Assembly: GCA_029552825.1 (NCBI GenBank)
Contig: JAKPDL010000108.1
Location: forward strand, 1 to 42,049
DNA from: Bacteroidota bacterium
GTDB taxonomy: Bacteria; Bacteroidota; Bacteroidia; Bacteroidales; VadinHA17
Direction: 5' to 3'
Length of the DNA: 42,049 nucleotides
The notes beneath the pieces were generated by a model. The model was given only the letters and a program-made list of their open reading frames with translations, had not been told where the DNA came from and ran no database searches. Position numbers and translations under genes: made by a program. Each line of letters starts with the position of its first letter. Position 1 is the stretch's first letter. Positions 2,311 to 42,049 of this stretch are shown here, in pieces.

Positions 2311-4455
2311 TCAGGCTTTTTTGAGTGCTTCAAGAACTCTGGTAGGTGTAAGTGGTACTCTGTAAATCCTTGCCCCCGTTGCGTCGAACAGGGCATTTGC
2401 GATAGCTGCTCCAACGGCAATTATTGCAGGTTCTCCACCGCCCTGTGGAGGCTGGTCTTTTCTGTCAAGTATAACACATTCGAGCTTCGGGACCCATGAA
2501 AACCTGGGTATTTCATAAGTGTCGAAATTCAAGGTCTTGATATTTCCTCCTTCGAAAAGTACTTCCTCGGTAAGTGCATAGCCAAGGCCCATGGTCAGGC
2601 AACCTTCCATCTGAAGAAGTGCACCCTGAGGGTTAACACATAATCCCATATCCTGTGCACAGGCAAGCCTCAGAACGGTTATTTTACCTGTTGTCCTGTC
2701 AACTTTTATTTCAGCCATAGTAGCCTGCCATGTGCCTGCGTCAATTCCGCAGGCTATACCGATGCCTCTGCCTGATGGAAATTTAGATGGAGTATATCCG
2801 AATTTATCAGCCACGGCTTTCAGGCAATCAATCATCTTCTGATCCTTCAGATTTTTTAACCGGAATTCCAGAGGATCCATTCCGGCTTTTGCTGCCATGA
2901 TATCGATCTGACATTCTCTGGCAAATGTGTTTGTATTATTATTGGGTGCCCGCCATGGCCCTGTGGCAAAGGGATGAACAGGAGGAGCATTTCTTGCCCT
3001 GCTGTAGCTGGTGGTTTTTCGGTTTGGTACATCGTAAACAGTTTCAGCTCCTCTTGTACCTGCCATCCACACATGATAATCCCAGAAAGTTATCCGGCCT
3101 TCCCTGTCGATTCCGGAATTGACTTTTACAACTGCAGAAGAATGGAAAGTGTCGTAAAAGAACTCTTCTTCACGCGTCCATACAACCATTACTGGCTTTC
3201 CTGTGAGCTTTGCCAGCCGGGCAGCTTCAATTGCCTGCTGATATGCATTTTTTGCCCCAAAGGCACCTCCTACATACGGAACAATTACTCTCACATTGTC
3301 GCGCGGCATTTTTAACTCATTTGCCAGTGAATCCTGCAAGGGGAAAGGCTGCTGGGTTGATGCCCATACTGTTAGCTTTTCACCTTCAAATTGCGCCAGT
3401 GCAGTATGTGTTTCAATGGGAGCATGTGCAAGGTATACATCATGAAACTCAGTTTCGAAGACGTGCTCCGATTGCTTCCTGCCAAGCTCTATGTCACCTG
3501 CAGTGTTTGACACACTTGAAGAAGTCTGGGCTTTTAAAATCCATTCAAAGAGGTTTCTGTCGTTTACTGGCAACTCATTGAATTCATATTCTGCTTTTAT
3601 TTTAACTATAGCTTCATCAACTTTATCTTTGTTCTCACTTACAACAGCAATCAGTCCATCGTCGCGCACCACTTTTACACCTTCGATTTTTTCAGCTGCA
3701 GAGGTATCTGCCGATTTCAGTGTAGCCCCGTGTGACGGTGGCCTCAGTATCCTTGCAAAGAGCATCCCTGGCAGTTTAAGGTCACCTGTGAATTTTGCCT
3801 CGCCTTTAACCTTTTCTACAGAGTCAACTTTCTTGTACGACTTCCCGACATAGATGAATTTTGTATAATCTTTAACCGGAGGCTTTACTTCGAGAAACTT
3901 TTCAATTCTTTTTCCTCTGGTAAGTTCTCCGTAAGTTACTCTCTTTGCCTTGTTACCTGAGACATAGATCACCCCTTTTTCTGCAACGAGTTGTGAAGCA
4001 GGCACCTTCAGCTTTTCCGAAGCCAGCTCCATAAGCACTCCCTTTGCTTCGGCGAGGGCTGCTCTCATAGCCGGGCCAAAACTCCTTGTGGTGAGAGAGC
4101 CATAGGTGCCCTGGTCGAAAGGACATAATGCCGTATCGCCCAACACCAGTTTTACTTTCTCAAGCGGAACGTCCAGTTCATCTGCAGCCATAACCGGCAG
4201 GGATGTTATAATACCCTGGCCCATTTCAATTTTACCTGTATAACATGTTACGGTTCCGTCTTCAGCTATATGGACAAAAGCATTAAAGTCTTTGGGCAGT
4301 GACCGTGCCTGCTCTGCGGGCATTTCCATCAGTTCTAAGGCATCCCACGGAGAGAAGAAAACAATTATCCCGCCTCCGAGTATTTTGAAGAAATCGCGCC
4401 TTCTTAAACCTGTGTTTCTGTTTTTTACAGTACTTTTTGTTTCTGTCTTTTTCAT
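2311..4455 (-). CDS. Molybdopterin-binding subunit of a xanthine dehydrogenase-family hydroxylase (IorB-like)
   Basis: This is the large catalytic subunit of a molybdenum hydroxylase that hydroxylates an N-heterocycle or oxidises an aldehyde; the substrate cannot be read from sequence. It belongs to the isoquinoline 1-oxidoreductase beta-subunit type. The N-terminus has a twin-arginine signal (RRRDFFKILGGG at about 18-29, then a hydrophobic run), so the folded cofactor-loaded enzyme is probably exported. The hammerhead domain lies around 200-300 and molybdopterin-binding domains follow. The C-terminal GGGEPA motif carries the expected catalytic Glu. At 714 residues the length is normal. It is the last gene of the operon, 2 bases after the [2Fe-2S] subunit. 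No FAD subunit is present, as in the two-subunit Ior type, which passes electrons to cytochromes. Confidence 0.9.
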   Translation of the reverse strand: MKKTETKSTVKNRNTGLRRRDFFKILGGGIIVFFSPWDALELMEMPAEQARSLPKDFNAFVHIAEDGTVTCYTGKIEMGQGIITSLPVMAADELDVPLEKVKLVLGDTALCPFDQGTYGSLTTRSFGPAMRAALAEAKGVLMELASEKLKVPASQLVAEKGVIYVSGNKAKRVTYGELTRGKRIEKFLEVKPPVKDYTKFIYVGKSYKKVDSVEKVKGEAKFTGDLKLPGMLFARILRPPSHGATLKSADTSAAEKIEGVKVVRDDGLIAVVSENKDKVDEAIVKIKAEYEFNELPVNDRNLFEWILKAQTSSSVSNTAGDIELGRKQSEHVFETEFHDVYLAHAPIETHTALAQFEGEKLTVWASTQQPFPLQDSLANELKMPRDNVRVIVPYVGGAFGAKNAYQQAIEAARLAKLTGKPVMVVWTREEEFFYDTFHSSAVVKVNSGIDREGRITFWDYHVWMAGTRGAETVYDVPNRKTTSYSRARNAPPVHPFATGPWRAPNNNTNTFARECQIDIMAAKAGMDPLEFRLKNLKDQKMIDCLKAVADKFGYTPSKFPSGRGIGIACGIDAGTWQATMAEIKVDRTTGKITVLRLACAQDMGLCVNPQGALLQMEGCLTMGLGYALTEEVLFEGGNIKTLNFDTYEIPRFSWVPKLECVILDRKDQPPQGGGEPAIIAVGAAIANALFDATGARIYRVPLTPTRVLEALKKA

Positions 4456-4457
4456 TT

Positions 4458-4934
4458 TTACTTCCCTCCTCTCATTTTAACTGATGCATCTTCAATTGCC
4501 TTAATAATACGTACATGAGCACCACATCTGCAGAGGTTATCATCCATTGCCTCAATTATCTGCTGCCTGGTTGGATTGCTGTTCCTTTTTAGCAGTGCAA
4601 GAGCATTCATTATCATACCGGGTGTGCAGAACCCGCACTGAAGAGCTTCGTTGTCAACAAATGCCTGCTGAAGAGGATGCAGTTTTCCATCGACCGCAAG
4701 CCCTTCAATAGTGAGTACGTTTTTCCCTTCAACTTCGCTTACAGGAAGCTGACACGACCTGACGGCCTCGTTATCGATAAGAATGGTACAGGCTCCGCAG
4801 AAACCTATGCCGCATCCAAATTTCGTTCCAGTTAGTCCAAAATGATTCCGGAGAACCCATAGGAGATTCTGACCAGGATCAATAGTGACAGAGGTCTTTT
4901 TACCATTCAGGGTAAACTGAATTGTTTTTTCCAT
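4458..4934 (-). CDS. [2Fe-2S] subunit of a molybdenum hydroxylase (IorA-like)
   Basis: This is the small electron-transfer subunit that pairs with the molybdopterin protein encoded next. The N-terminal plant-type ferredoxin domain has cluster ligands C41, C46, C49 and C61. The C-terminal four-helix domain binds a second cluster through C100, C103, C135 and C137 (motifs CGFC and CRCG). At 158 residues it has the usual length. It has no signal peptide of its own, consistent with co-export on the Tat signal of its partner. It starts 8 bases after the MocA-like gene ends and is clearly in the same operon. Confidence 0.93.
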   Translation of the reverse strand: MEKTIQFTLNGKKTSVTIDPGQNLLWVLRNHFGLTGTKFGCGIGFCGACTILIDNEAVRSCQLPVSEVEGKNVLTIEGLAVDGKLHPLQQAFVDNEALQCGFCTPGMIMNALALLKRNSNPTRQQIIEAMDDNLCRCGAHVRIIKAIEDASVKMRGGK

Positions 4935-4942
4935 GTGTCTGA

Positions 4943-5578
4943 TTATTTTTTTGTTGCTTTAATATAATCTTCTGTTGTGTCAATATCGAAAAAAATATTT
5001 TCATCATCGGTTGGGTGCTCAAAAATATCGCTGCTGAATTTTTCGAGAAGCAATCTCAAACCTCGCTCATAATCAAGTCTTTCAATTTCACCGAAATACT
5101 TTCTGTCAATCAAAACAGGATGTCCCCTTCTGCCTTTGCATACAGGAACCACTATTCCCTTTCCTGATTTAAAATAAGCCTCAGTAATCTCATCCAGTAA
5201 TTTTCCTGTAATAAAAGGATAATCAGCAGGATAAATAATTGCAGCACTGGTATCTGCAGGAAGTGACCTGATTCCCTTTATAACCGAAGCAAGCATGCCC
5301 TTCTGCCATTCTTCATTAAATGTTATTCTGACAGGTAAATTCCCGATTTTCTCCATAATCTCATCTTTCCAGGCACCCAGTACAACAACGGTATTTTGTA
5401 TCCTTGACGACTGTAAGTTTTCAATCACTTTCTCAATTAACGTTTTTCCCTGCAATGGAAGAAGCATTTTGGGAGTTTTTGTCCTAACCGATTTCCCGGC
5501 AGCAAGCAGAATTATGCTGATAGAAGAATTATCTCCTGCTTTTCCCATTGCATCCTTTTCTTTATAACTAATCATCAC
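4943..5578 (-). CDS. MocA/MobA-like molybdenum cofactor nucleotidyltransferase
   Basis: A nucleotidyltransferase of the MobA/MocA fold, predicted to add CMP (or GMP) to molybdopterin. The N-terminal signature LLAAGKS followed by K-M-L-L-P-L fits this fold, and YPADYPFI (about 117-124) supplies the metal-binding Asp region. GHPVLID near 155 is typical of the MocA group. Xanthine dehydrogenase-family enzymes of Ior type use the cytosine dinucleotide cofactor, so MocA activity is the better guess. The longest frame begins MMISYKEKDAM; starting at the inner ATG (5548) would still leave the whole catalytic domain. It lies between xdhC-like and [2Fe-2S] genes. Confidence 0.85.
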   Translation of the reverse strand: MMISYKEKDAMGKAGDNSSISIILLAAGKSVRTKTPKMLLPLQGKTLIEKVIENLQSSRIQNTVVVLGAWKDEIMEKIGNLPVRITFNEEWQKGMLASVIKGIRSLPADTSAAIIYPADYPFITGKLLDEITEAYFKSGKGIVVPVCKGRRGHPVLIDRKYFGEIERLDYERGLRLLLEKFSSDIFEHPTDDENIFFDIDTTEDYIKATKK

Positions 5579-5658
5579 CCTTTCTCTATTCCTTACAAAG
5601 GAGGGTTCTGAAGGATGAGCATCAATTGAGTATCACTTATTTCAAATATACATAAAAA

Positions 5659-6741
5659 TTATATTTTACCCTGCGTGTTAATGTTGTTTTTTACCATAAT
5701 CAATTCTGCTGCAATGCTTACAGCTATTTCTTCTACACTCCTGGAATTGATTTTTACACCGATGGGAGCATGAATTCTTGCCCATTGTTGTTCAGTAGCC
5801 CAGCCCTTTGAAATGAAATCCTGATGCATCTTTTCAACTTTTGTTCTGCTTCCTATCATTCCGATATAAGCAGCATTACTGCCAATACATTCACGTAAAG
5901 CCTCAGCATCTCTGGCATGACCCCGGGTAACAATAACTATATAAGTGTTGCTGTCTTTTTTTATTTTACCCAGGGCGGGTCCTATTTCGTCTGTAATAAT
6001 TTTATCAGCATCGGGCAGATTGGCAGGGTTTGCAAATTCAGGTCTGTCGTCAATAACTGTAACCTCAAAGCCAAGAAATCTGCCAAGGTGGCTCAATGCT
6101 TTGCCGATATGTCCTGCACCTGCGATTATTAGAGAGGGCGTGGGAAAGATAGGCTCTATAACTGCAAAAACTTTTTCTTCTTCAGTAAAGTTACCTGAAT
6201 CAATAAGAACCAGACTGCCTGCATCTTTGTTTATAAGAAGCTTTTCTGATTCAGCTGCCAGGAGATCTCTGTATTTTTGCGGGATATTTTCACAGGAGAA
6301 ATCTTTTGCAAGAATATATTTTTCTGTTCTTACTTGTTCTCCTTTAGCAGTATATATTAGAGTTGCGACGCTAAATGGCACGTTTCTTTTAATAATCTCC
6401 TTGAGATTTGTTATGAAGTCCGGTTTTTCCAGTATAGTCGGATCAATTAGAACTCTGACAGTGCCTCCGCATATGGCAGATTCGTAATCTTCAGTGCTGT
6501 TTTCCAGATTAACACTTATAATTACTGGCCTTTTTTCGGTAATTGATTTAATAGCTGTATATTTAACTGTTTCTTCCAGAGCACCACCACCCACTGTGCC
6601 GGCTTCAAGCCCATTGGAACTGAAAAGAGCTGAAGCCCCTTCTTTCTGAGGTGCCGAACCGGATGATGATATTATGGTCGCCAGAGCCAGTCCGGGTATT
6701 TTCTCATATTTCTCGATAAGAAACCTGTAAATGTTTTTCAT
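5659..6741 (-). CDS. XdhC/CoxI family molybdoenzyme maturation factor
   Basis: XdhC-type proteins bind the molybdenum cofactor, help to sulfurate it and insert it into the hydroxylase. The N-terminal XdhC/CoxI domain covers roughly 10-75, with CGG at 91-93, the motif where cofactor-binding Cys sits in the family. The C-terminal Rossmann domain has GAGHIGKAL at 208-216 and DDRPEFAN at 231-238. At 360 residues it is full length. It is the first gene of the minus-strand operon and is followed after 80 bases by the MocA-like gene. The order maturation, cofactor, small subunit, large subunit supports one functional unit. Confidence 0.9.
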   Translation of the reverse strand: MKNIYRFLIEKYEKIPGLALATIISSSGSAPQKEGASALFSSNGLEAGTVGGGALEETVKYTAIKSITEKRPVIISVNLENSTEDYESAICGGTVRVLIDPTILEKPDFITNLKEIIKRNVPFSVATLIYTAKGEQVRTEKYILAKDFSCENIPQKYRDLLAAESEKLLINKDAGSLVLIDSGNFTEEEKVFAVIEPIFPTPSLIIAGAGHIGKALSHLGRFLGFEVTVIDDRPEFANPANLPDADKIITDEIGPALGKIKKDSNTYIVIVTRGHARDAEALRECIGSNAAYIGMIGSRTKVEKMHQDFISKGWATEQQWARIHAPIGVKINSRSVEEIAVSIAAELIMVKNNINTQGKI

Positions 6742-30589: not shown

Positions 30590-31804
30590 CTAATACCTAT
30601 CATACCTGCCATCAATAAAAACTTCTTTCACAGCTTCCAGATATCCAAACCCGTTAAGCATGTCGGGCAATAGATAACTCCCTTCAACCCATTCATTCCA
30701 TGCATTTATGGTTATTAGCTTCGGCTGCTCAGGATGAGCGTCGGCATATCGCTTCGCTTTCGACAACAGTGCCGCAAAACTCTCAGGAGTATTATGATAA
30801 TGCACAACATCCTTTATCCCCTTCCCCGGAAACCGCGGCGTGTCATCCCATCCAATAGATACACATGGAAATACCGGAATGTCCAGAATCGCATCCAGTT
30901 GCTCCCTGATCTTCAGTGAATTCGCACCGTAAACAAGGTAATCTTCATTGAAACCTCCCATATTATACATTGCAAAACTGTCAAAACCCAGTTCCTTTAT
31001 CCTTGCTGCAAACCTTTCCGCTGCCTCCTGCGTCATAACCGATCCACCACCCTGATTCCATTGAAGATGCAACCCCGGAAAACCTGCTTTCTTTACCTCA
31101 TCACGAAAATAATCAAGCGCCTTACGGGTCTCTTCCACACTGCCACCGAAACTTTCAATCAATTTGTTTACACTGAAAATAGAAAAAACAGGCTCACCAT
31201 TGATCTTGAAATAATTGGGACGCTTAAAATAATTATTTATTACCCTCTCAACAATGATTCTGAAATTCTCCCAGTCTACCTTTGCATTAAAAAGTATATT
31301 GTTGTTATCCCTGTAAAGGTGAACATTCCAGTAATTGTACCTTACATCATGGTTTGCCCACATGATGTAAAACTTCATTTTTTCATTGTTTCTGGCTTTC
31401 AGGAATCCGTCGTTGAGAGCGCTCTCAAGAAAGGGCCCACCTTCATACCAGTACCAGTCGTATACGAAAATATTCACACCATGGTCAGTTGCTGCATCAA
31501 TCCATTTTTCAACCACACGGGGATCATTGTCAGGTTCATAACCCCAGAGAGGTTGCCTCGGCTGGTAATGACCCTCAAAACGTGGGGTGCCCTTTTTGAT
31601 CACCTCCCATTCACCAATCCCCTCAGGCCAGAGCTTTGCCCTGCCAAGCGGATCGTCATGACATGATGGCCATACATATGCTGCAACATAATAGCCACTA
31701 ACGGGTTGCTGAGGTTGCATTTTTTCTTTTCTGAAACTATATAGATATCCTGAAAAAATAATCAGCAACACCATAGCATTTAGGTTTATAATGACATTTT
31801 TCAT
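30590..31804 (-). CDS. Secreted GH99-like/WbsX-type glycoside hydrolase
   Basis: An N-terminal membrane/signal segment (about 5-22) precedes a TIM-barrel of the glycosyltransferase-WbsX/GH99-like type. Typical stretches are YDWYWYEGG (about 117-125), IMWANHD (about 149-155) and INAWNEWVEGSYLLPD (about 370-385) near the end. These proteins are related to endo-mannanases and to polysaccharide-cluster proteins; the substrate is not readable here. At 404 residues it is complete. It follows the DUF1593 gene by 35 bases on the same strand, so both are probably co-expressed for glycan handling. Confidence 0.83.
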   Translation of the reverse strand: MKNVIINLNAMVLLIIFSGYLYSFRKEKMQPQQPVSGYYVAAYVWPSCHDDPLGRAKLWPEGIGEWEVIKKGTPRFEGHYQPRQPLWGYEPDNDPRVVEKWIDAATDHGVNIFVYDWYWYEGGPFLESALNDGFLKARNNEKMKFYIMWANHDVRYNYWNVHLYRDNNNILFNAKVDWENFRIIVERVINNYFKRPNYFKINGEPVFSIFSVNKLIESFGGSVEETRKALDYFRDEVKKAGFPGLHLQWNQGGGSVMTQEAAERFAARIKELGFDSFAMYNMGGFNEDYLVYGANSLKIREQLDAILDIPVFPCVSIGWDDTPRFPGKGIKDVVHYHNTPESFAALLSKAKRYADAHPEQPKLITINAWNEWVEGSYLLPDMLNGFGYLEAVKEVFIDGRYDRY

Positions 31805-31839: not shown

Positions 31840-33375
31840 TTACCTTATGGTTATGATAATTCTCTGATACCTTGTAAGCGGTGGTTCACCATTGTCTGTC
31901 GCCTCAAGAATGATATGAATGGTCTGTCCTCCGGCTGCATCTTTGGGAATCGTTACGTATGTTTTCAGTGAATCGGGATGAGAAATTTCAACTTTACCCG
32001 GATAGGTGCCTGCATTAAATTGCCACCATTTAATCGCTACTTTATTTCCGTCAGGATCTGACACTCGTCCGTGGATAGCGACTCTCTGTCCGGGGGAGGC
32101 GAGGAATTCCAGAGGTCCTTCTACTGTCACCACGGGTTCGTGATTGGCATTTTCGTATTTATCTGTAACACTCCATTTCAGGCGGTTGGCGAAATCGCGC
32201 TGCGCCTGGGGGAAAAAGTCAGGATAATCCATTTTACTGACACTTAACCCGGGGGAAGCTTCCCGGGCTTCGATTACTCTTCCACCCCAGCCGCCATAGT
32301 ATCCTTTTTCCCATGCGCGAAGGCCGTTGTCAAGCATATTCATAAATGTATGATTGTCGCCTTCTCCGAGCCATGATCCTTTTTTCTGTACTGGCATCCA
32401 TACAATATAACCCATCTTTCTTAATTGCTCGTCTGTATAACCCGACAAACCAAAATAGTCGAGCCTGTCGCCTTTTACCATCTGCTTGCCATCGCCCCAT
32501 ACCCTGTATAGTTCACCCAGAGGACCCCGGCTGGTTATGTTTTCTTTCATCCATTCAGGTGTCATATATGCCGCGTCTTCAGGTGAAGCTTTAATCTGTG
32601 CTCCGTATCCGTAATTGGGACCACCCCTGAACTGCCTGTATTCTATATCAGGCCAGTTGGGCTTGATGTATTTTGCATAGGTGTCGTCCTGGTCACCCGA
32701 AGGCAGTAACACAACCTTCCTTGAAATCTTTTTTTTCAAGGCTTCCCATTCTGTTGTGTATTCATACTGTTCCTGAATCGATTTCAGAGCACGCGCAATG
32801 GTGCTGTGACCTCCCCATGCTGCAAGAAATAACTTACCAGGCCTGTCATCAAGTATCAGCGATTTTATCAAATCTGATCCTGGTGAATCTTTTGAAATGT
32901 CACCATCGAACTCGATATTTCCATACCGGATCTTTGATTTCAGATATTCAGGCGATGGATAATCAGGATTATGTTTTATAAGATTGGGGTAAACCTTTTC
33001 ATATGCTTCCACAACATCATGGATATGCCTTGAATTTTCTGACCATCGCCATGATTCACAGGGACATTCATTCATTCCGAAACGGTCATATTCTCTTCCC
33101 GGCACATACCACCGGGTACCCTTACCATCACCTTTCCAGTGAAACTGACTGCTGGCATAAACCAGACCTTCAATTTCCACGTCGGTGCTGTAGAGCAGGA
33201 AACGAATAAGTGAGTTGCTGTCATCAAGCTCGGGATCAGTGGTTATGACAATACGGGGTTTGACTTTCCCTGAAGAGATTTGTGCATTAACCGTCAGTAT
33301 GCTGATGGAGAAAACAGCAGCTGCCAGGAGAAATACCGGCACTATTTTCCCGGAGCGGAAAAGATTTTTATCCAT
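31840..33375 (-). CDS. Secreted DUF1593 nucleoside-hydrolase-like protein
   Basis: The ATG at 33375 is preferred because a classic signal peptide (MDKNLFRSG, hydrophobic run, VNAQ) follows it; the longer TTG-initiated frame overlaps the upstream SDR region and adds an odd leader. The mature N-terminal domain begins with TTDPELDDSNS, the Asp cluster that binds calcium in nucleoside hydrolase folds. The C-terminal 100 residues resemble a beta-sandwich, typical of DUF1593 proteins that act on plant-type glycans. It precedes the GH99-like gene by 35 bases. The real substrate is unknown. Confidence 0.83.
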   Translation of the reverse strand: MDKNLFRSGKIVPVFLLAAAVFSISILTVNAQISSGKVKPRIVITTDPELDDSNSLIRFLLYSTDVEIEGLVYASSQFHWKGDGKGTRWYVPGREYDRFGMNECPCESWRWSENSRHIHDVVEAYEKVYPNLIKHNPDYPSPEYLKSKIRYGNIEFDGDISKDSPGSDLIKSLILDDRPGKLFLAAWGGHSTIARALKSIQEQYEYTTEWEALKKKISRKVVLLPSGDQDDTYAKYIKPNWPDIEYRQFRGGPNYGYGAQIKASPEDAAYMTPEWMKENITSRGPLGELYRVWGDGKQMVKGDRLDYFGLSGYTDEQLRKMGYIVWMPVQKKGSWLGEGDNHTFMNMLDNGLRAWEKGYYGGWGGRVIEAREASPGLSVSKMDYPDFFPQAQRDFANRLKWSVTDKYENANHEPVVTVEGPLEFLASPGQRVAIHGRVSDPDGNKVAIKWWQFNAGTYPGKVEISHPDSLKTYVTIPKDAAGGQTIHIILEATDNGEPPLTRYQRIIITIR

Positions 33376-33441
33376 AATGCAGATATTTATTGTTTTAAGA
33401 TATACGCTAAAAATTACCTCAGTTTGCTCAGAAAGCAAGTT

Positions 33442-37101: not shown

Positions 37102-38712
37102 TTATATTGGCGGTAGCCCCAATTCTTTTAAATACTGATTATGTGTTTCTCTTGCTTTTGCTATCTGCTGTTCTATTTCGGTTAGTTTATTACTCACATC
37201 CGTTAAATCTATCTGTTCCTCCTCTTGTGCGGTGTTCACATACCTTGAAATATTCAGGTTAAATTCGTTTTTTTCAATTTCTGCCATGGAAACTCTTCGG
37301 GAGTAGTGGTCTTCTTCTTTTCGGAATTGGTAGGTTTCTACGATCTTGCGGATATGTTCAGGTAACAGAGTATTTTGCCGTTTGCCTTTTTCGTAATACT
37401 CTGCAGCATTTATGAATAAAACATCGTCAAATTTCTTGCATTTCTTTAAGACCAAAATACAAACCGGAATACCCGTAGAGAAAAACAGGTTTGCAGGCAG
37501 TCCGATAACTGTGTCTATGTTGCCGTCCACCAGCAATTTTCTTCTGATTTTTTCCTCTGCTCCGCCTCTGAACAATACGCCGTGTGGCAAGATAATCGCC
37601 ATGGTTCCCTCTTTGCCAAGAAAATGAAAACCATGCAGCAGGAAGGCAAAATCGGCTGCCGATCTGGGAGCAAGACCGTAACTCTTGAAACGGAAATCCT
37701 GTGCCATTTCTTCCGTGGGCTCCCATCGGTAACTAAAAGGAGGATTAGCTACTACGGCATCAAATTCTAATTTTTTTGCAGGATTGATTTCTTTTAAAAT
37801 CTCCCAATCGTTGAGGAGAGTGTCCCCGTGATGAATAGCAAATTCCGTATCCTTAACGCCATGTAAAAGCATATTCATTCGGGCAAGGTTGTAAGTGGTG
37901 ATGTTTTTTTCCTGTCCGTATAGTTTGCCAATGGTTCCATTTGCTTCGATTATTTTTCTGCGAACGTTCAGGAGCAATGAACCAGAACCGCAGGCAAAGT
38001 CTAAAACCCGCTCGATTTTTTTCTTTTTGCCCTGAGCGGGGTCCTGGCTGTCGAGAATAACAATTTCGGAAAGAATATCGGAAATGCGTTGCGGGGTGTA
38101 AAATTCGCCCGCTTTTTTGCCCGAACCTGCCGCAAACTGACCAATGAGATATTCGTAGGCATCGCCTAAAATATCTTTATCGGTGGAAAACTGGTTGATG
38201 CCCTCGGCAATTTTCTGAATGATGGTGCAAAGTTTTTTGTTGCGCTCTTCATAACTTTTTCCGAGTTTGTCAGAATCCAGATTGATTTCAGAAAACAAAC
38301 CTTGAAAGGTGCTTTCGAACGATTGGTTTTCAATGTATTTAAAGCCTTTCTGTAAGGTTTTTAGCAATTCTTTACTCTGGGTTTTAGCCAGGTATGCGAT
38401 ATTGTTCCACAGGTATTGCGGTTCAATAACATAGTGTATCTTTCTCCGCATCTGCTTTTCAAATTCAGCCACATCGCCGGGGTTTTGTTCATACCAGACG
38501 AAAAGTGGGGTTTTGCCGCCGTTTCCGTTCAGAGATGGATAATCTTTGCCAAGCTCTTTCCGGGCTGCTTCTTCGTAGTTATCGCTCAGGTAGCGCAGAA
38601 ACAAAAACGAAAGCATATAATCGCGAAAATCGTCGGCGTTCATGGAACCGCGCAGGTCGTCTGCGATTTTCCAGAGGGTTTTGCCTAAATCTGAGTGATT
38701 GTTTGCTGCCAT
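37102..38712 (-). CDS. hsdM: Type I restriction-modification DNA methyltransferase subunit
   Basis: HsdM makes N6-adenine methylation at the site chosen by HsdS. The N-terminal HsdM domain (about 8-130) is followed by the methylase domain. The AdoMet-binding motif is DFACGSGS (238-245) and the catalytic motif is NPPF (323-326), the N6-adenine type. The C-terminal helices at about 480-536 would contact HsdS. At 536 residues it is full length. It is the last gene of the operon, 9 bases after the PrrC-like gene. The start MAANNHSDLGKTLW is usual for the family. Confidence 0.95.
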   Translation of the reverse strand: MAANNHSDLGKTLWKIADDLRGSMNADDFRDYMLSFLFLRYLSDNYEEAARKELGKDYPSLNGNGGKTPLFVWYEQNPGDVAEFEKQMRRKIHYVIEPQYLWNNIAYLAKTQSKELLKTLQKGFKYIENQSFESTFQGLFSEINLDSDKLGKSYEERNKKLCTIIQKIAEGINQFSTDKDILGDAYEYLIGQFAAGSGKKAGEFYTPQRISDILSEIVILDSQDPAQGKKKKIERVLDFACGSGSLLLNVRRKIIEANGTIGKLYGQEKNITTYNLARMNMLLHGVKDTEFAIHHGDTLLNDWEILKEINPAKKLEFDAVVANPPFSYRWEPTEEMAQDFRFKSYGLAPRSAADFAFLLHGFHFLGKEGTMAIILPHGVLFRGGAEEKIRRKLLVDGNIDTVIGLPANLFFSTGIPVCILVLKKCKKFDDVLFINAAEYYEKGKRQNTLLPEHIRKIVETYQFRKEEDHYSRRVSMAEIEKNEFNLNISRYVNTAQEEEQIDLTDVSNKLTEIEQQIAKARETHNQYLKELGLPPI

Positions 38713-38721
38713 ATTATTGGT

Positions 38722-39801
38722 TTAATATCTAAAGTTGTACTTTTCTTGAATCTTATTGAAAATATTTTTGAAAAACACCTCTTGCTCAGGCGACATTTCA
38801 TTGAATTGAAAGCGATAAACATTTTGGTGCGAAAGTGAATTAATCATTTCCAAAGCATCATTTGGATTATCAACGTTTATCTCTGATAGAATGATTCCAA
38901 TTCTTCCAGAACCAATAAATGAAGAGATATTTTCAAGGAGTTGCCTAAGTAACACAAAATGGAAAAGGTAGAGTTTATTTCTAATAGCCTCATCTAAAGT
39001 TTGCATTAGATGAAGATGAAACAGAAAAACATCTTTGTCGTGATGTTTTAAATCAAACTCGTTCCCATTTCTTGCAAGAATGAATGGCCTTGTGTTATCT
39101 TTGAATTTGCTACTTTTTTCACCCCTTTTAAGCCTGTCAAAAAGAATAGAATAGAGTCCAATGTGGTGTGTAGTAATGATTATCTTTTTCTTAAGGTAAT
39201 TTCTCTCAATTATGTCAACAATTGAATCAGCAGTAATAAAAATATTATGGTCGTCTAAACTTGAGACAGGGTCATCAATAAAAAAATGAGCATCCTGTTT
39301 ACCTGCCCAAGCATCTAATTCAAAAAGTGCAAGGAAAAAGCACCATATAAAAATCCTTTCTTCTCCTCTTGAAATCTTTCTGGGTTGACCATCTTCCTCC
39401 AATGAAAAAGTCACTGATTCTATTCCATATTCGGGATTCTCATGCGGATTAAGCTTATAATAGTATTGCGGATTGTATGGTGCCAGCTTTTCATTAAGCA
39501 AATCCGGATTATATAAAAGGAAGCCATGGAATTGATTTAAACTGCTGGGAATAAGTCTCAATTTGATGTCAGCATTATCATGCTCTTCATCATTATCCCA
39601 AACAAAAAGATCTTCGCTATAGGCATTATAGTAAACTCCTGTATGTTTGTCATCCTCAGTCTTTGTAATATCTTTATAATTAACCGATAATCTTGTCTTA
39701 CCCATAGAATTGAAAGCGTAAATAAGAATAATCGGTTCTTTAATGTCTTTTAATTGTTTTGCTATTTCGATTAAACTACTCATTTTATATTGCATAAACA
39801 T
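38722..39801 (-). CDS. PrrC-like ATPase with candidate anticodon-nuclease domain
   Basis: An ABC/SMC-like ATPase lying between hsdS and hsdM. Walker A is AFNSMGKT (29-36, Ala in place of the first Gly), the signature is SRGEE (144-148), Walker B is FFIDDPVSSLD (173-183), and the switch His is in TTHH (210-213). The C-terminal part has R286 and E290 (R-x3-E) and H325 in NSLSH. This order and spacing is close to the PrrC triad Arg320-Glu324-His356, whose anticodon nuclease cuts tRNA-Lys when the partner restriction enzyme is blocked by phage. At 359 residues it is a little shorter than PrrC. An ATG at 39783, one base after hsdS ends, is an alternative start. Nuclease activity is inferred. Confidence 0.75.
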   Translation of the reverse strand: MFMQYKMSSLIEIAKQLKDIKEPIILIYAFNSMGKTRLSVNYKDITKTEDDKHTGVYYNAYSEDLFVWDNDEEHDNADIKLRLIPSSLNQFHGFLLYNPDLLNEKLAPYNPQYYYKLNPHENPEYGIESVTFSLEEDGQPRKISRGEERIFIWCFFLALFELDAWAGKQDAHFFIDDPVSSLDDHNIFITADSIVDIIERNYLKKKIIITTHHIGLYSILFDRLKRGEKSSKFKDNTRPFILARNGNEFDLKHHDKDVFLFHLHLMQTLDEAIRNKLYLFHFVLLRQLLENISSFIGSGRIGIILSEINVDNPNDALEMINSLSHQNVYRFQFNEMSPEQEVFFKNIFNKIQEKYNFRY

Positions 39802-41080
39802 TAGGAAACAACCCCTGCAAAAACCCTTTTTTGTACTGCTCTAATAATTCTATTTTTTGTTGCTGGGCATTTATTAATTCATCTAATGACGAAAGACAAT
39901 CGGCGATTTTTTGCTGCTCGGGGAGGGGGGGGATTAGTAAGAGAACTTTCAGAAACGATTGTTTTGATAAATTAAATCTTGTAATACCTTGTGCGATCTT
40001 ATTTATTTGTTTTCTGTATAAATTGCTTCTGAATAAATATCGACTAAATTCAGGTAAAAGATTAGCTTTTTTATGTGGTCTTAAACAAAAACAAAAACTG
40101 TTTAAATAAGTATCTTGTGCAGGTTCATTAAGCATTACGGATGCAAATCCTACTTCATCAGGCGTTTCGGATGATGTTGTTATCAAAATATCTCCCTTAT
40201 GAATGGTATTTTGTTTTTCATTAAGTTCAATATTTACAAAACTACATTTATCAAGATTAACCATTGAGTCTTCATATACTTGTAAGTAAGTAATGAATGG
40301 ACTACCTTTTCCAAAATCATTTGCAGATTTGTTAGTTAATCCATTAATTGTTTCCCCTATTTCTCCAATTATTTTCTCTTCCCACTCCCCACTATCCTTA
40401 AACTCGGGGAAGCGTAATTTAGGGACGGTTTCGCCTTCCCGGGGGAATAGGTTTTGCAGCAGGCCCTTTTTGTGGGCTCTGAGCAGCTCGAGCCGCTGCC
40501 GCTCTCCGGCTATCACTTCATCAATGGACGACAGGCAGGAGGCGATTTTTTGCTGCTCGGGAAGGGAGGGAATTAAAAGTTTCAATTTTTTTAATGTGGT
40601 AAGTTGTAATGCTTTTCTTGTGCTTCCTTGAGTATTTGAAGTAATGAACGCCTTAACTTCTTTTCCTTCATTGAGTTTTAATAATAAAAAATAAGAGACA
40701 ACTTTATTTTCAATTACTTTAAAAACAGGATAGGCAGGACTTATCATCCCTTTTTCACAAATATTGTTAACATTGAAGTAAAAGTTGCCATCATCAGACA
40801 TACTTCTGTATGTAATGTATCCTTCTGGAATAATGTTGTATCCTATATTATTTTTACTTGCAACCTTTCTATCATTAAAATATTCCTCTTGAAAAAAGAT
40901 TCCTTTACGTGAGGATGTCAATAATGGAAATTCAAAATTCTTTTTCGTTTTTTCAATAAATTCTTCAATAAGTTCATCTAACCTTTTCCATCCCCACTCC
41001 CCGCTATTTTGGAATTCTGGGAAACGGAGGCGGGGTATTAAGGCTTTACCGGTTTCTTTGTTGGAATTATAATCGTTCAT
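39785..41080 (-). CDS. hsdS: Type I restriction-modification specificity subunit
   Basis: HsdS sets the DNA target of the type I complex. Two target-recognition domains (about 30-165 and 230-375) are each followed by a conserved helical region starting with LPEQQKIA, one central and one at the C-terminus. Each half also begins with a similar stretch, PRLRFPEF and PKLRFPEF. At 431 residues the length is normal. The start codon overlaps the stop of the upstream small gene as ATGA. The repeated halves share a 21-base identical segment, which may allow recombination between specificity domains. Confidence 0.95.
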   Translation of the reverse strand: MNDYNSNKETGKALIPRLRFPEFQNSGEWGWKRLDELIEEFIEKTKKNFEFPLLTSSRKGIFFQEEYFNDRKVASKNNIGYNIIPEGYITYRSMSDDGNFYFNVNNICEKGMISPAYPVFKVIENKVVSYFLLLKLNEGKEVKAFITSNTQGSTRKALQLTTLKKLKLLIPSLPEQQKIASCLSSIDEVIAGERQRLELLRAHKKGLLQNLFPREGETVPKLRFPEFKDSGEWEEKIIGEIGETINGLTNKSANDFGKGSPFITYLQVYEDSMVNLDKCSFVNIELNEKQNTIHKGDILITTSSETPDEVGFASVMLNEPAQDTYLNSFCFCLRPHKKANLLPEFSRYLFRSNLYRKQINKIAQGITRFNLSKQSFLKVLLLIPPLPEQQKIADCLSSLDELINAQQQKIELLEQYKKGFLQGLFPNVYAI

Positions 41081-41394
41081 GCGTTATTCGGATTTGTTAT
41101 GCCTGCTTTTATTGTTTTATTTTTCAAAATTGTAAAAACCAGCTCCGGATTTCCCCGGGTTTTGTCAAATAAAAGTGTCTTAATATCAGTACGTTGTTTG
41201 TTTTTGTTTGACAAAATCAAAAAAAACAGCTGATTATTTCCCCCTGTTTTGTCAAATAAAACAGATTGATAATCAATAAAATGCAATTTTATTGAACAAA
41301 ATTGTTTAATTAACGAAGCATTATTTCCCCTCATTATATTTATATGACATTCAATAATTTTTTGATTCAGTCTTTTAAATTTATCTACATTCAT
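41077..41394 (-). CDS. Unknown 105-residue protein with internal tandem repeat, in restriction operon
   Basis: I do not recognise this protein. Residues 40-62 and 69-91 are two copies of one unit: SVLFDKTGGNNQLFF...LSNK and TLLFDKTRGNPELVF...LKNK. At DNA level a 16-base segment GTTTTGTCAAATAAAA repeats exactly 87 bases (29 codons) apart, in frame. The gene lies 24 bases after hsdR and overlaps hsdS as ATGA, which argues that it is translated. It could be a real accessory factor or a remnant of a repeat element that became coding. Confidence 0.55.
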   Translation of the reverse strand: MNVDKFKRLNQKIIECHINIMRGNNASLIKQFCSIKLHFIDYQSVLFDKTGGNNQLFFLILSNKNKQRTDIKTLLFDKTRGNPELVFTILKNKTIKAGITNPNNA

Positions 41395-41418: not shown

Positions 41419-42049
41419 TTATACTTCGTATGCTTTTAACCCACTAATTTCCCGCCCTTCGGCTTTCTTTTTTAAAACAGGAATTAACTCCTGCATCAGA
41501 GCCAGTTCTCGTTTAGTGCGTTCTTTCCAGCCCAGGTCAAGGGCTTCAAAAAGTTCGCTAAGTTTATCGGCATCAAAAATCATTCGGCTAATGATATGGT
41601 CGGTAAATTGCTGCAGTGCCAATGTTGATAAGCCATGTTTTTGTGCAATTTCCGATAACTTTTTGGCAATTTTTTCTTCCTTAAATTTCTGGTAATCGTC
41701 TTTTATTTGTTGCTCGTTGAGTGGTTTGCCAACTTCCAAAGTATTGATGTAATCAGTAATATCGTCCCGTTCTTCCATTAGGTTGGCGCTGCTGCTCAGT
41801 ACGCCAATAAGTTGTTCACGGGTCATCTTTTGTTTTTTGGGTTGCTGCTGGGTGTATTTGGCAATCAGTTTCATGATGTAGTCATAATCCACCAATGCAG
41901 AGGCAAAAAGCACAAATTCAAAATCGAGCTGCTGAATATTTTCGGGGGCATTGTCGCCTTCCTTTTGCTGAATTTCCTTGAGCTGTCTGGCAATTTCCAG
42001 ATACGAACTGCGGAAAGAACGCAGCTGTTCCTCCGGCATCAGTTCTTCA
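41419..42049 (-). CDS. hsdR: Type I restriction endonuclease subunit R, C-terminal part (runs off the window)
   Basis: Only the last ~210 residues are in the window; the open frame continues past 42049 with no start required here (codons before the inner Met read Glu-Glu-Leu). The segment matches the helical C-terminal domain of EcoR124-type HsdR, which contacts HsdM/HsdS: DYDYIMKLIAKYTQQ and LMEERDDITDYINTL are characteristic. The nuclease and translocase motor domains must lie upstream, outside the window. It is the first gene seen of the operon hsdR - unknown - hsdS - PrrC-like - hsdM. Confidence 0.9.
   Translation of the reverse strand, partial: EELMPEEQLRSFRSSYLEIARQLKEIQQKEGDNAPENIQQLDFEFVLFASALVDYDYIMKLIAKYTQQQPKKQKMTREQLIGVLSSSANLMEERDDITDYINTLEVGKPLNEQQIKDDYQKFKEEKIAKKLSEIAQKHGLSTLALQQFTDHIISRMIFDADKLSELFEALDLGWKERTKRELALMQELIPVLKKKAEGREISGLKAYEV

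Follow-up and report, generated by a model that had tools for sequence, protein, structure and literature searches.

Identification of the prrC-type gene

The question raised by this locus is whether a gene situated within a type I restriction operon of a Bacteroidota bacterium encodes an anticodon nuclease of the PrrC family and, if so, which tRNA it would be expected to cut. The window, i.e., the whole stretch of 42,049 nucleotides that was analyzed, contains the features listed in Table 1. The first-pass annotation, made from the letters of the sequence, had proposed a PrrC-like anticodon nuclease (ACNase) candidate within a type I operon, and this proposal was supported by the match to the PrrC model of PADLOC, by a conserved triad, and by the hsd neighbors. 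The suggested profile searches against AAA_13 and PrrC gave E-values of 2.5e-12 for Pfam AAA_13 and 2.2e-97 for the PADLOC PrrC model, the latter match covering residues 4–358 of the window protein, and both scores were far above chance; a scan of the same protein against NCBIfam gave no match. With the PADLOC PrrC model, the E. coli reference, the Klebsiella reference, and the window protein scored 490.5, 476.6, and 324.4 bits, respectively, and L063, a 763-aa ABC protein of a different PADLOC group, scored 47.8 bits. The E. coli reference (L068:5899-7089), 396 aa in length and annotated as an anticodon nuclease, is encoded on an E. coli plasmid whose annotation points to P1-phage-like genes. 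It has R, E, and H exactly at positions 320, 324, and 356, which are the residues published for EcoPrrC (R320, E324, and H356, as given in the cited parts of PMC2610378 and PMC3014915). Over aligned residues, the window protein was 38% identical to this reference and 36% identical to a PrrC of K. quasipneumoniae (L117).

It should be noted that Met7 (ATG 39781-39783), the codon of which lies one base past the stop codon of hsdS, appears to be the likelier start of the protein, because in the near relatives L002, L007, L009, and L014 the ORF begins at the equivalent of residue 7 and because the first listed prrC ATG falls within hsdS. The protein would then consist of 353 aa; the residue numbers used here remain those of the 359-aa ORF. 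The size range given for PrrC proteins in PMC2610378 is 341–416 aa, and the window protein falls inside it.

Table 1. Features of the prrC-type gene and of the neighboring restriction genes in the window (row counts refer to the alignment of 101 PrrC sequences).
Feature	Position	Strand	Basis or conservation
hsdM, DNA methyltransferase subunit	37102..38712	-	TIGR00497, E 2.7e-116, score over cut-off
prrC-type gene	38722..39801	-	359 aa as listed ORF; PADLOC PrrC and Pfam AAA_13 matches
H325, proposed third triad residue	38827..38829	-	aligns with H356; 100/101 rows
R286-x3-E290, two residues of the proposed ACNase triad	38932..38946	-	align with R320 and E324; 101/101 rows
Loop HDKDVFLF and invariant H262, residues 254-262	39016..39042	-	counterpart of the EcoPrrC Asp287 segment
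Switch TTH, linchpin H212	39166..39174	-	H212 in 101/101 rows
Walker B/D-loop FFIDDPVSSLDD, residues 173-184	39250..39285	-	D176, D177, P178, and D183 in 101/101 rows
ABC signature SRGEE, residues 144-148	39358..39372	-	S144 and E147 in 101/101 rows; G146 in 97
Candidate PrrC box YYNAYSEDLFVWDND, 15 residues (57-71)	39589..39633	-	row conservation
Walker A AFNSMGKT, residues 29-36	39694..39717	-	G34, K35, and T36 each in 100/101 rows, the remaining row being a gap
hsdS, specificity subunit	39785..41080	-	Methylase_S, E 1.1e-32, two stretches
hsdR, C-terminal part	41419..42048	-	EcoR124_C, E 1.1e-46; remainder on contig C107

The Walker A, signature, Walker B, and switch histidine motifs of an ABC-type ATPase, which had been read from the sequence at the outset, were all found and were near-invariant in the 101 rows. 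The stretch YYNAYSEDLFVWDND, which is similar to YYNAFTEDLFYWDND of the E. coli reference, probably corresponds to the published PrrC box of the N-terminal domain; its residues Y57, A60, E63, D64, F66, W68, and N70 were found in 100–101 of the 101 rows and N59 in 97. Of the 101 rows, 87 matched a loose PrrC-box pattern; in a set of 3974 ORFs, no ORF without a PrrC label did so.

Distribution and phylogeny of PrrC-family sequences

A pattern scan of one genome per species (84,980 species) yielded 58 loci. At an E-value of 0.001, the PADLOC PrrC family was detected in 5 of 98 genomes (the window's own, the same genus, and the same order), namely, in the window's own genome, in one further genome with a strong match (E 3.7e-139), and in three with weak matches. 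In the phylum sample, 23 of 395 genomes, the window's own counted, matched at 1e-30; among 14 control genomes, two matched at 0.001 (Escherichia coli and Bacteroides ihuae) and one at 1e-30 (Bacteroides ihuae). Viral contigs contributed one locus with the window protein as the query and 20 with the E. coli reference, one of which (L116) was of the Klebsiella type, and plasmids contributed 113 records for either of the two queries.

The alignment comprised 101 distinct rows, namely, the window protein and 100 relatives. Copies of the window (L001, L060, and L062), a fragment (L056), sequences identical over residues 21–300 (L057, L085, L088, L089, L090, L098, and L106), sequences that were broken or scored under 200 (L059, L063, and L066), and the later prrC genes, i.e., L117 and those in L122–L151, were excluded. 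The tree was built from 99 rows, the truncated sequences L003 and L055 being left out, and contained 27 sequences of the E. coli type, 10 of the Klebsiella type, and 62 of the window type, each set off by a branch with a bootstrap of 100; long branches meet at the center and the root is placed at the midpoint, so that the relation among the three clades is unsure. The window clade, which includes 64 of the 101 rows and has a long branch of its own, was found in records, many of them metagenome bins, labeled Bacteroidota, Pseudomonadota, Bacillota, Cyanobacteriota, Verrucomicrobiota, Nitrospirota, Spirochaetota, and Bdellovibrionota. In the tree, the window protein falls in a branch of PrrC that is large and little studied. 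In open-licence papers, no protein identified as a member of this clade was found with a measured activity. The window adds an operon that looks intact to this clade, for which no member identified as tested was found in that literature.

Proposed catalytic triad and C-terminal domain

It had been proposed that R286-x3-E290 and H325 match Arg320, Glu324, and His356 of PrrC in order, with an Arg-to-His offset of 39 versus 36, and the alignment bore this out. Conservation of the three residues in homologues was run as a check: every aligned row that reaches these positions has them, and the sole row without the equivalent of H325 (L003) ends at its contig end and was counted as a gap. The offset of 39 was the most frequent in the window clade (49 of 63 rows; 40 in 11, 43 in two, and 37 in one), while that of 36 was found in 16 of the 27 rows of the E. 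coli clade, the others having 37–40, and the Klebsiella type was divided equally between 37 and 40 (five of 10 rows each).

With the ATPase part removed, the C-terminal domain of the window protein aligned to that of the E. coli clade with an hhalign probability of 99.5 (E 8.3e-23), R being placed on R, E on E, and H on H, and pairwise comparison of the C-terminal profiles among the three clades gave probabilities of 99.4–99.7. The RNase domain of PrrC is classed as HEPN in the cited part of PMC3710099. Judged by these sequence comparisons, the window gene is a true member of the PrrC family whose anticodon-nuclease motifs are intact, and it does not represent a new kind of system.

The AlphaFold2 model of the window protein (mean pLDDT 86.1) places R286 and E290 within helix 281–296, while helix 313–325 terminates in H325; in the model of an E. 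coli-clade protein (L100, pLDDT 80.6), R297 and E301 are in helix 290–307 and H333 follows helix 320–332. The triad-bearing helices of the two predicted structures appear to correspond. In the Foldseek comparison with the PDB, Rad50 heads led (E 1.1e-05), followed by other ATPases, and no PrrC or HEPN entry was present among the best 50 matches listed for the PDB or for viral models. The informative named matches were all ATPases, the C-terminal domain having no structural match of its own in Foldseek. The ATPase part is similar in fold to the heads of Rad50, SbcC, and SMC proteins; unlike PrrC, Rad50, SbcC, and T4 gp46 have no equivalent of the ACNase region, as stated in the cited part of PMC2610378. 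A sequence search of solved structures gave no match with the window protein and two Rad50 entries only (5da9 and 5dac, E 0.003–0.0044) with the family profile; since these searches yielded nothing beyond Rad50, there was no PrrC structure for superposition.

Restriction operon and gene order

The order of transcription in the window is hsdR, a doubtful 105-aa ORF, hsdS, prrC, and hsdM, all on the minus strand. The final 141 bases of the window recur without a mismatch at the beginning of contig C107, and the part of hsdR on that contig aligns at 86% identity with residues 1–825 of L002 HsdR, its reading frame uninterrupted by stop codons. Because of this overlap and the stop-free continuation, it was concluded that hsdR is interrupted by the contig end at 42049 and not by a mutation. 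The end of HsdR matches EcoR124_C and HsdM matches TIGR00497, and the restriction enzyme therefore appears to be EcoR124-like; since EcoR124I is named as type Ic in PMC3014915, the enzyme would be type IC-like by this likeness. As far as can be judged from the sequence, the operon is intact-looking, and the neighboring Hsd subunits are without visible damage. The 105-aa ORF between hsdR and hsdS (41077-41394, minus strand) had no match in Pfam, PADLOC, or NCBIfam, and of 198 genomes only the window's own matched it; it contains a 77-nt direct repeat (copies 73% identical, spacing 87). It is probably an AT-rich insertion and not a gene.

The position of prrC between hsdS and hsdM had been noted as differing from E. 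coli prrC. This difference holds for the E. coli clade, which has the order hsdM-hsdS-prrC-hsdR, yet hsdR-(x)-hsdS-prrC-hsdM is the usual order in the other two clades, so that the position of prrC in the window is normal and the order is not new. Scored by the nearest labeled gene on either side, at least one hsd gene was found beside prrC in all 101 rows. Downstream of prrC, hsdR was found in 26 of the 27 rows of the E. coli type (in the remaining row, past inserted genes), and hsdM in nine of the 10 rows of the Klebsiella type (in the remaining row, past one inserted gene) and in 62 of the 64 rows of the window type, with one further row past an inserted gene and one at a contig edge. Upstream of prrC, hsdS was found in 23/27, 10/10, and 63/64 rows of the E. 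coli, Klebsiella, and window types, respectively; three of the five exceptions, including the single one of the window type, are contig-edge cases (L109, L114, and L055), and two have no separate hsdS labeled (L079 and L103). In L103, a 723-aa ORF labeled hsdM (3829-6000) ends directly at prrC and is possibly an HsdM-HsdS fusion. Unlabeled gaps between hsdS and prrC reached 454 bases in L091 and 2711 bases in L112, those between prrC and hsdR up to ~0.8 kb, and those between prrC and hsdM up to ~2 kb. The full order could be read whole in 16 rows of the E. coli type (MSCR) and in 53 of the window type (RSCM), the other rows being partial or containing an insert.

The constant feature is hence hsdS followed by prrC, whichever way hsdM and hsdR stand. 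This constancy hints at hsdS, or at coupling to it, as the fixed partner; as a counterpoint, a published pull-down with PrrC antiserum brought down HsdR (PMC3014915, in the part cited). A gene pair encoding a TrlF-type ATPase and an RNA-binding-domain protein was observed inside prrC operons of differing gene order, namely, in the hsdR-hsdS interval of L067, L069, and L117 and in the prrC-hsdR interval of L102.

The prrC gene is an optional part of the operon. A further 29 hsdM loci were compared, drawn, together with the window, from the 30 best matches (53 of 296 genomes matched) and having flanks of ~1.5 kb or less; prrC was found upstream of hsdM in 12 of them, and hsdS touched hsdM in one (L131). 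Where prrC was missing, 10 ORFs lying upstream of hsdM (L125, L126, L129, L132, L133, L137, L139, L142, L145, and L151) were scanned with Pfam, which gave PDDEXK_2 in five and, in one each, RhuM, a HerA-like ATPase, a UvrD-like ATPase, and a weak Zeta-toxin match; one ORF had no match. In these relatives, the site preceding hsdM holds varied genes and may serve as an accessory slot.

Putative mode of action and comparison with known systems

According to these data, the window gene very probably encodes a PrrC-family anticodon nuclease that would be held silent in a type IC-like operon, released upon phage infection, and most likely directed at tRNA-Lys(UUU). At a locus that has the family membership, the intact motifs, the conserved triad, the operon, and the undamaged-looking subunits, the silencing, the trigger, the RNase activity, and the tRNA-Lys target would follow EcoPrrC and PrrC170 by analogy. 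The product, an NTPase of the ABC type carrying a HEPN-kind RNase domain at its C-terminus, would be made from the same operon as HsdR, HsdS, and HsdM, and the type IC-like enzyme formed by these subunits would keep the nuclease silent. A phage that inhibits or perturbs the restriction enzyme would set off an NTP-driven rearrangement freeing the RNase, which would cut host tRNA in the anticodon loop, and translation and phage growth would be stopped. PrrC is characterized as a latent nuclease that Hsd proteins keep silent and that cleaves tRNA-Lys 5' of the wobble base; the predicted cut of tRNA-Lys by the window protein is probable on the same analogy. The host genome encodes tRNA-Lys(TTT) with the loop CTTTTAA and tRNA-Lys(CTT), found among 30 of 39 tRNA matches inspected.

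EcoPrrC of the EcoprrI system shares with the window protein the ABC motifs, the R-x3-E ... H triad, and the site directly after hsdS, and differs from it in gene order, in an identity of 38%, and in a longer tRNA-contact loop with D287-S288. For PrrC170 of Klebsiella quasipneumoniae, the genes are listed as HsdR, HsdS, PrrC, and HsdM, as in the window (PMC11555353); this comparison concerns the listed order and the description, by which PrrC170 could be of the Klebsiella or the window type. The PrrC170 system, cloned from upstream of HsdR, is described in the same source as blocking phages T1 and T7, arresting growth, and targeting tRNA-Lys. L117, another PrrC of K. quasipneumoniae, is of the hsdR-first type. 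The points that stand against reading the window gene as a PrrC anticodon nuclease are the identities of 38% and 36%, the long branch, a PADLOC score well under those of both references, a shorter loop, the lack of a measured activity for the clade in open-licence papers, and a C-terminal domain for which Foldseek gave no match of its own.

Putative wobble-contact loop and alternative readings

In EcoPrrC, contact with the modified wobble base is attributed to Asp287, and the peptide 284–294 of this protein crosslinks to the anticodon stem-loop (PMC3014915, cited part). A tRNA-contact segment around Asp287 is described for a subset of PrrC proteins. In the hhalign alignment, D257 of the window protein is paired with D287 across a three-residue gap, so that three residues present in the E. 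coli reference, S288 among them, have no counterpart in the window loop. Positions were counted backward from the invariant His (H295 in the E. coli reference and H262 in the window). An acid was found in all 27 rows of the E. coli clade, at −8 (19 rows) or −6 (eight rows), and at −6 in 10/10 rows of the Klebsiella type, while the window clade had K, N, S, or R at −6 in 64/64 rows (K or N in 59); position −5 was acidic (D or E) in 47 of its rows and G, S, or A in the other 17; V was found at −4 in 57 rows and L at −2 in 62, and in 16 of the 64 rows there was no acid anywhere from −9 to −1. The loop forms were mostly [KN][DE]VFLYH in the window clade and DS..SFSYH or DTPFFHH in the others. The loop of the window clade is clade-specific and conserved, so the same contact may be made differently or another target may be read, and this loop offers a clear test of tRNA choice by PrrC enzymes.

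It is possible, if unlikely, that the rebuilt wobble-reading loop gives this PrrC-family nuclease a changed target, i.e., another tRNA or tRNA-Lys with a different wobble modification. The difference between clades at −8 and −6 favors this possibility, as do the altered response to wobble modification of Asp287 substitutions and the expectation, in the review cited, that substrates vary with the segment around Asp287 (both in PMC3014915). Against it, D257 pairs with D287 in the profile alignment with a gap of three, loop length is variable within the E. coli clade too, and tRNA-Lys is also the target of PrrC170, although its identity to EcoPrrC is just 35% (PMC11555353). The broader proposal of a second functional PrrC type, the loop of which aims the clade at a tRNA or wobble modification other than that of EcoPrrC, so that phages protected against EcoPrrC-type cutting would stay unprotected, is regarded as doubtful. 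A tRNA-Lys(CTT) gene was observed on contig C107 (4063-4135, minus strand; locus L170), ~1.6 kb upstream of hsdR. No tRNA-Lys was found in the flanks of the 59 window-type loci (fragments and one duplicate included), 12 of which carry some other tRNA, or of 28 other prrC loci. On this account the gene was rejected as a hint of the target, and its position is taken to reflect chance or a common insertion site.

That the window protein is an ATPase merely regulating the restriction enzyme, its RNase activity having been lost, is considered very unlikely: the open-licence literature shows no activity data for the window clade, which would agree with such a loss, but the retention of R and E in 101/101 rows and of H in 100/101 rows across several phyla is not what loss would predict. 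An RloC-like nuclease responding to DNA damage instead of to the loss of restriction is extremely unlikely, since RloC, although it has the same ABC motifs and R-x3-E ... H motif of an ABC ATPase with an ACNase triad, is double the size (658–897 aa), has a zinc-hook insert splitting the ATPase domain, differs in its Glu-His spacing (36–52 versus 34 in the window protein and 31 in EcoPrrC), and is seldom tied to restriction–modification (just 8 of 73 RloC with type I or III systems; RloC figures from the cited part of PMC2610378), whereas the window protein, of 359 or 353 aa, has a single Cys, hence no CxxC zinc hook, and is assigned to PADLOC PrrC.

Elsewhere in the window, a gene at 31840-33438 (minus strand) encodes an Sde182-type protein with a nucleoside-hydrolase-like domain, called cellulose-binding, and is adjoined by a WbsX-type gene at 30590-31804.
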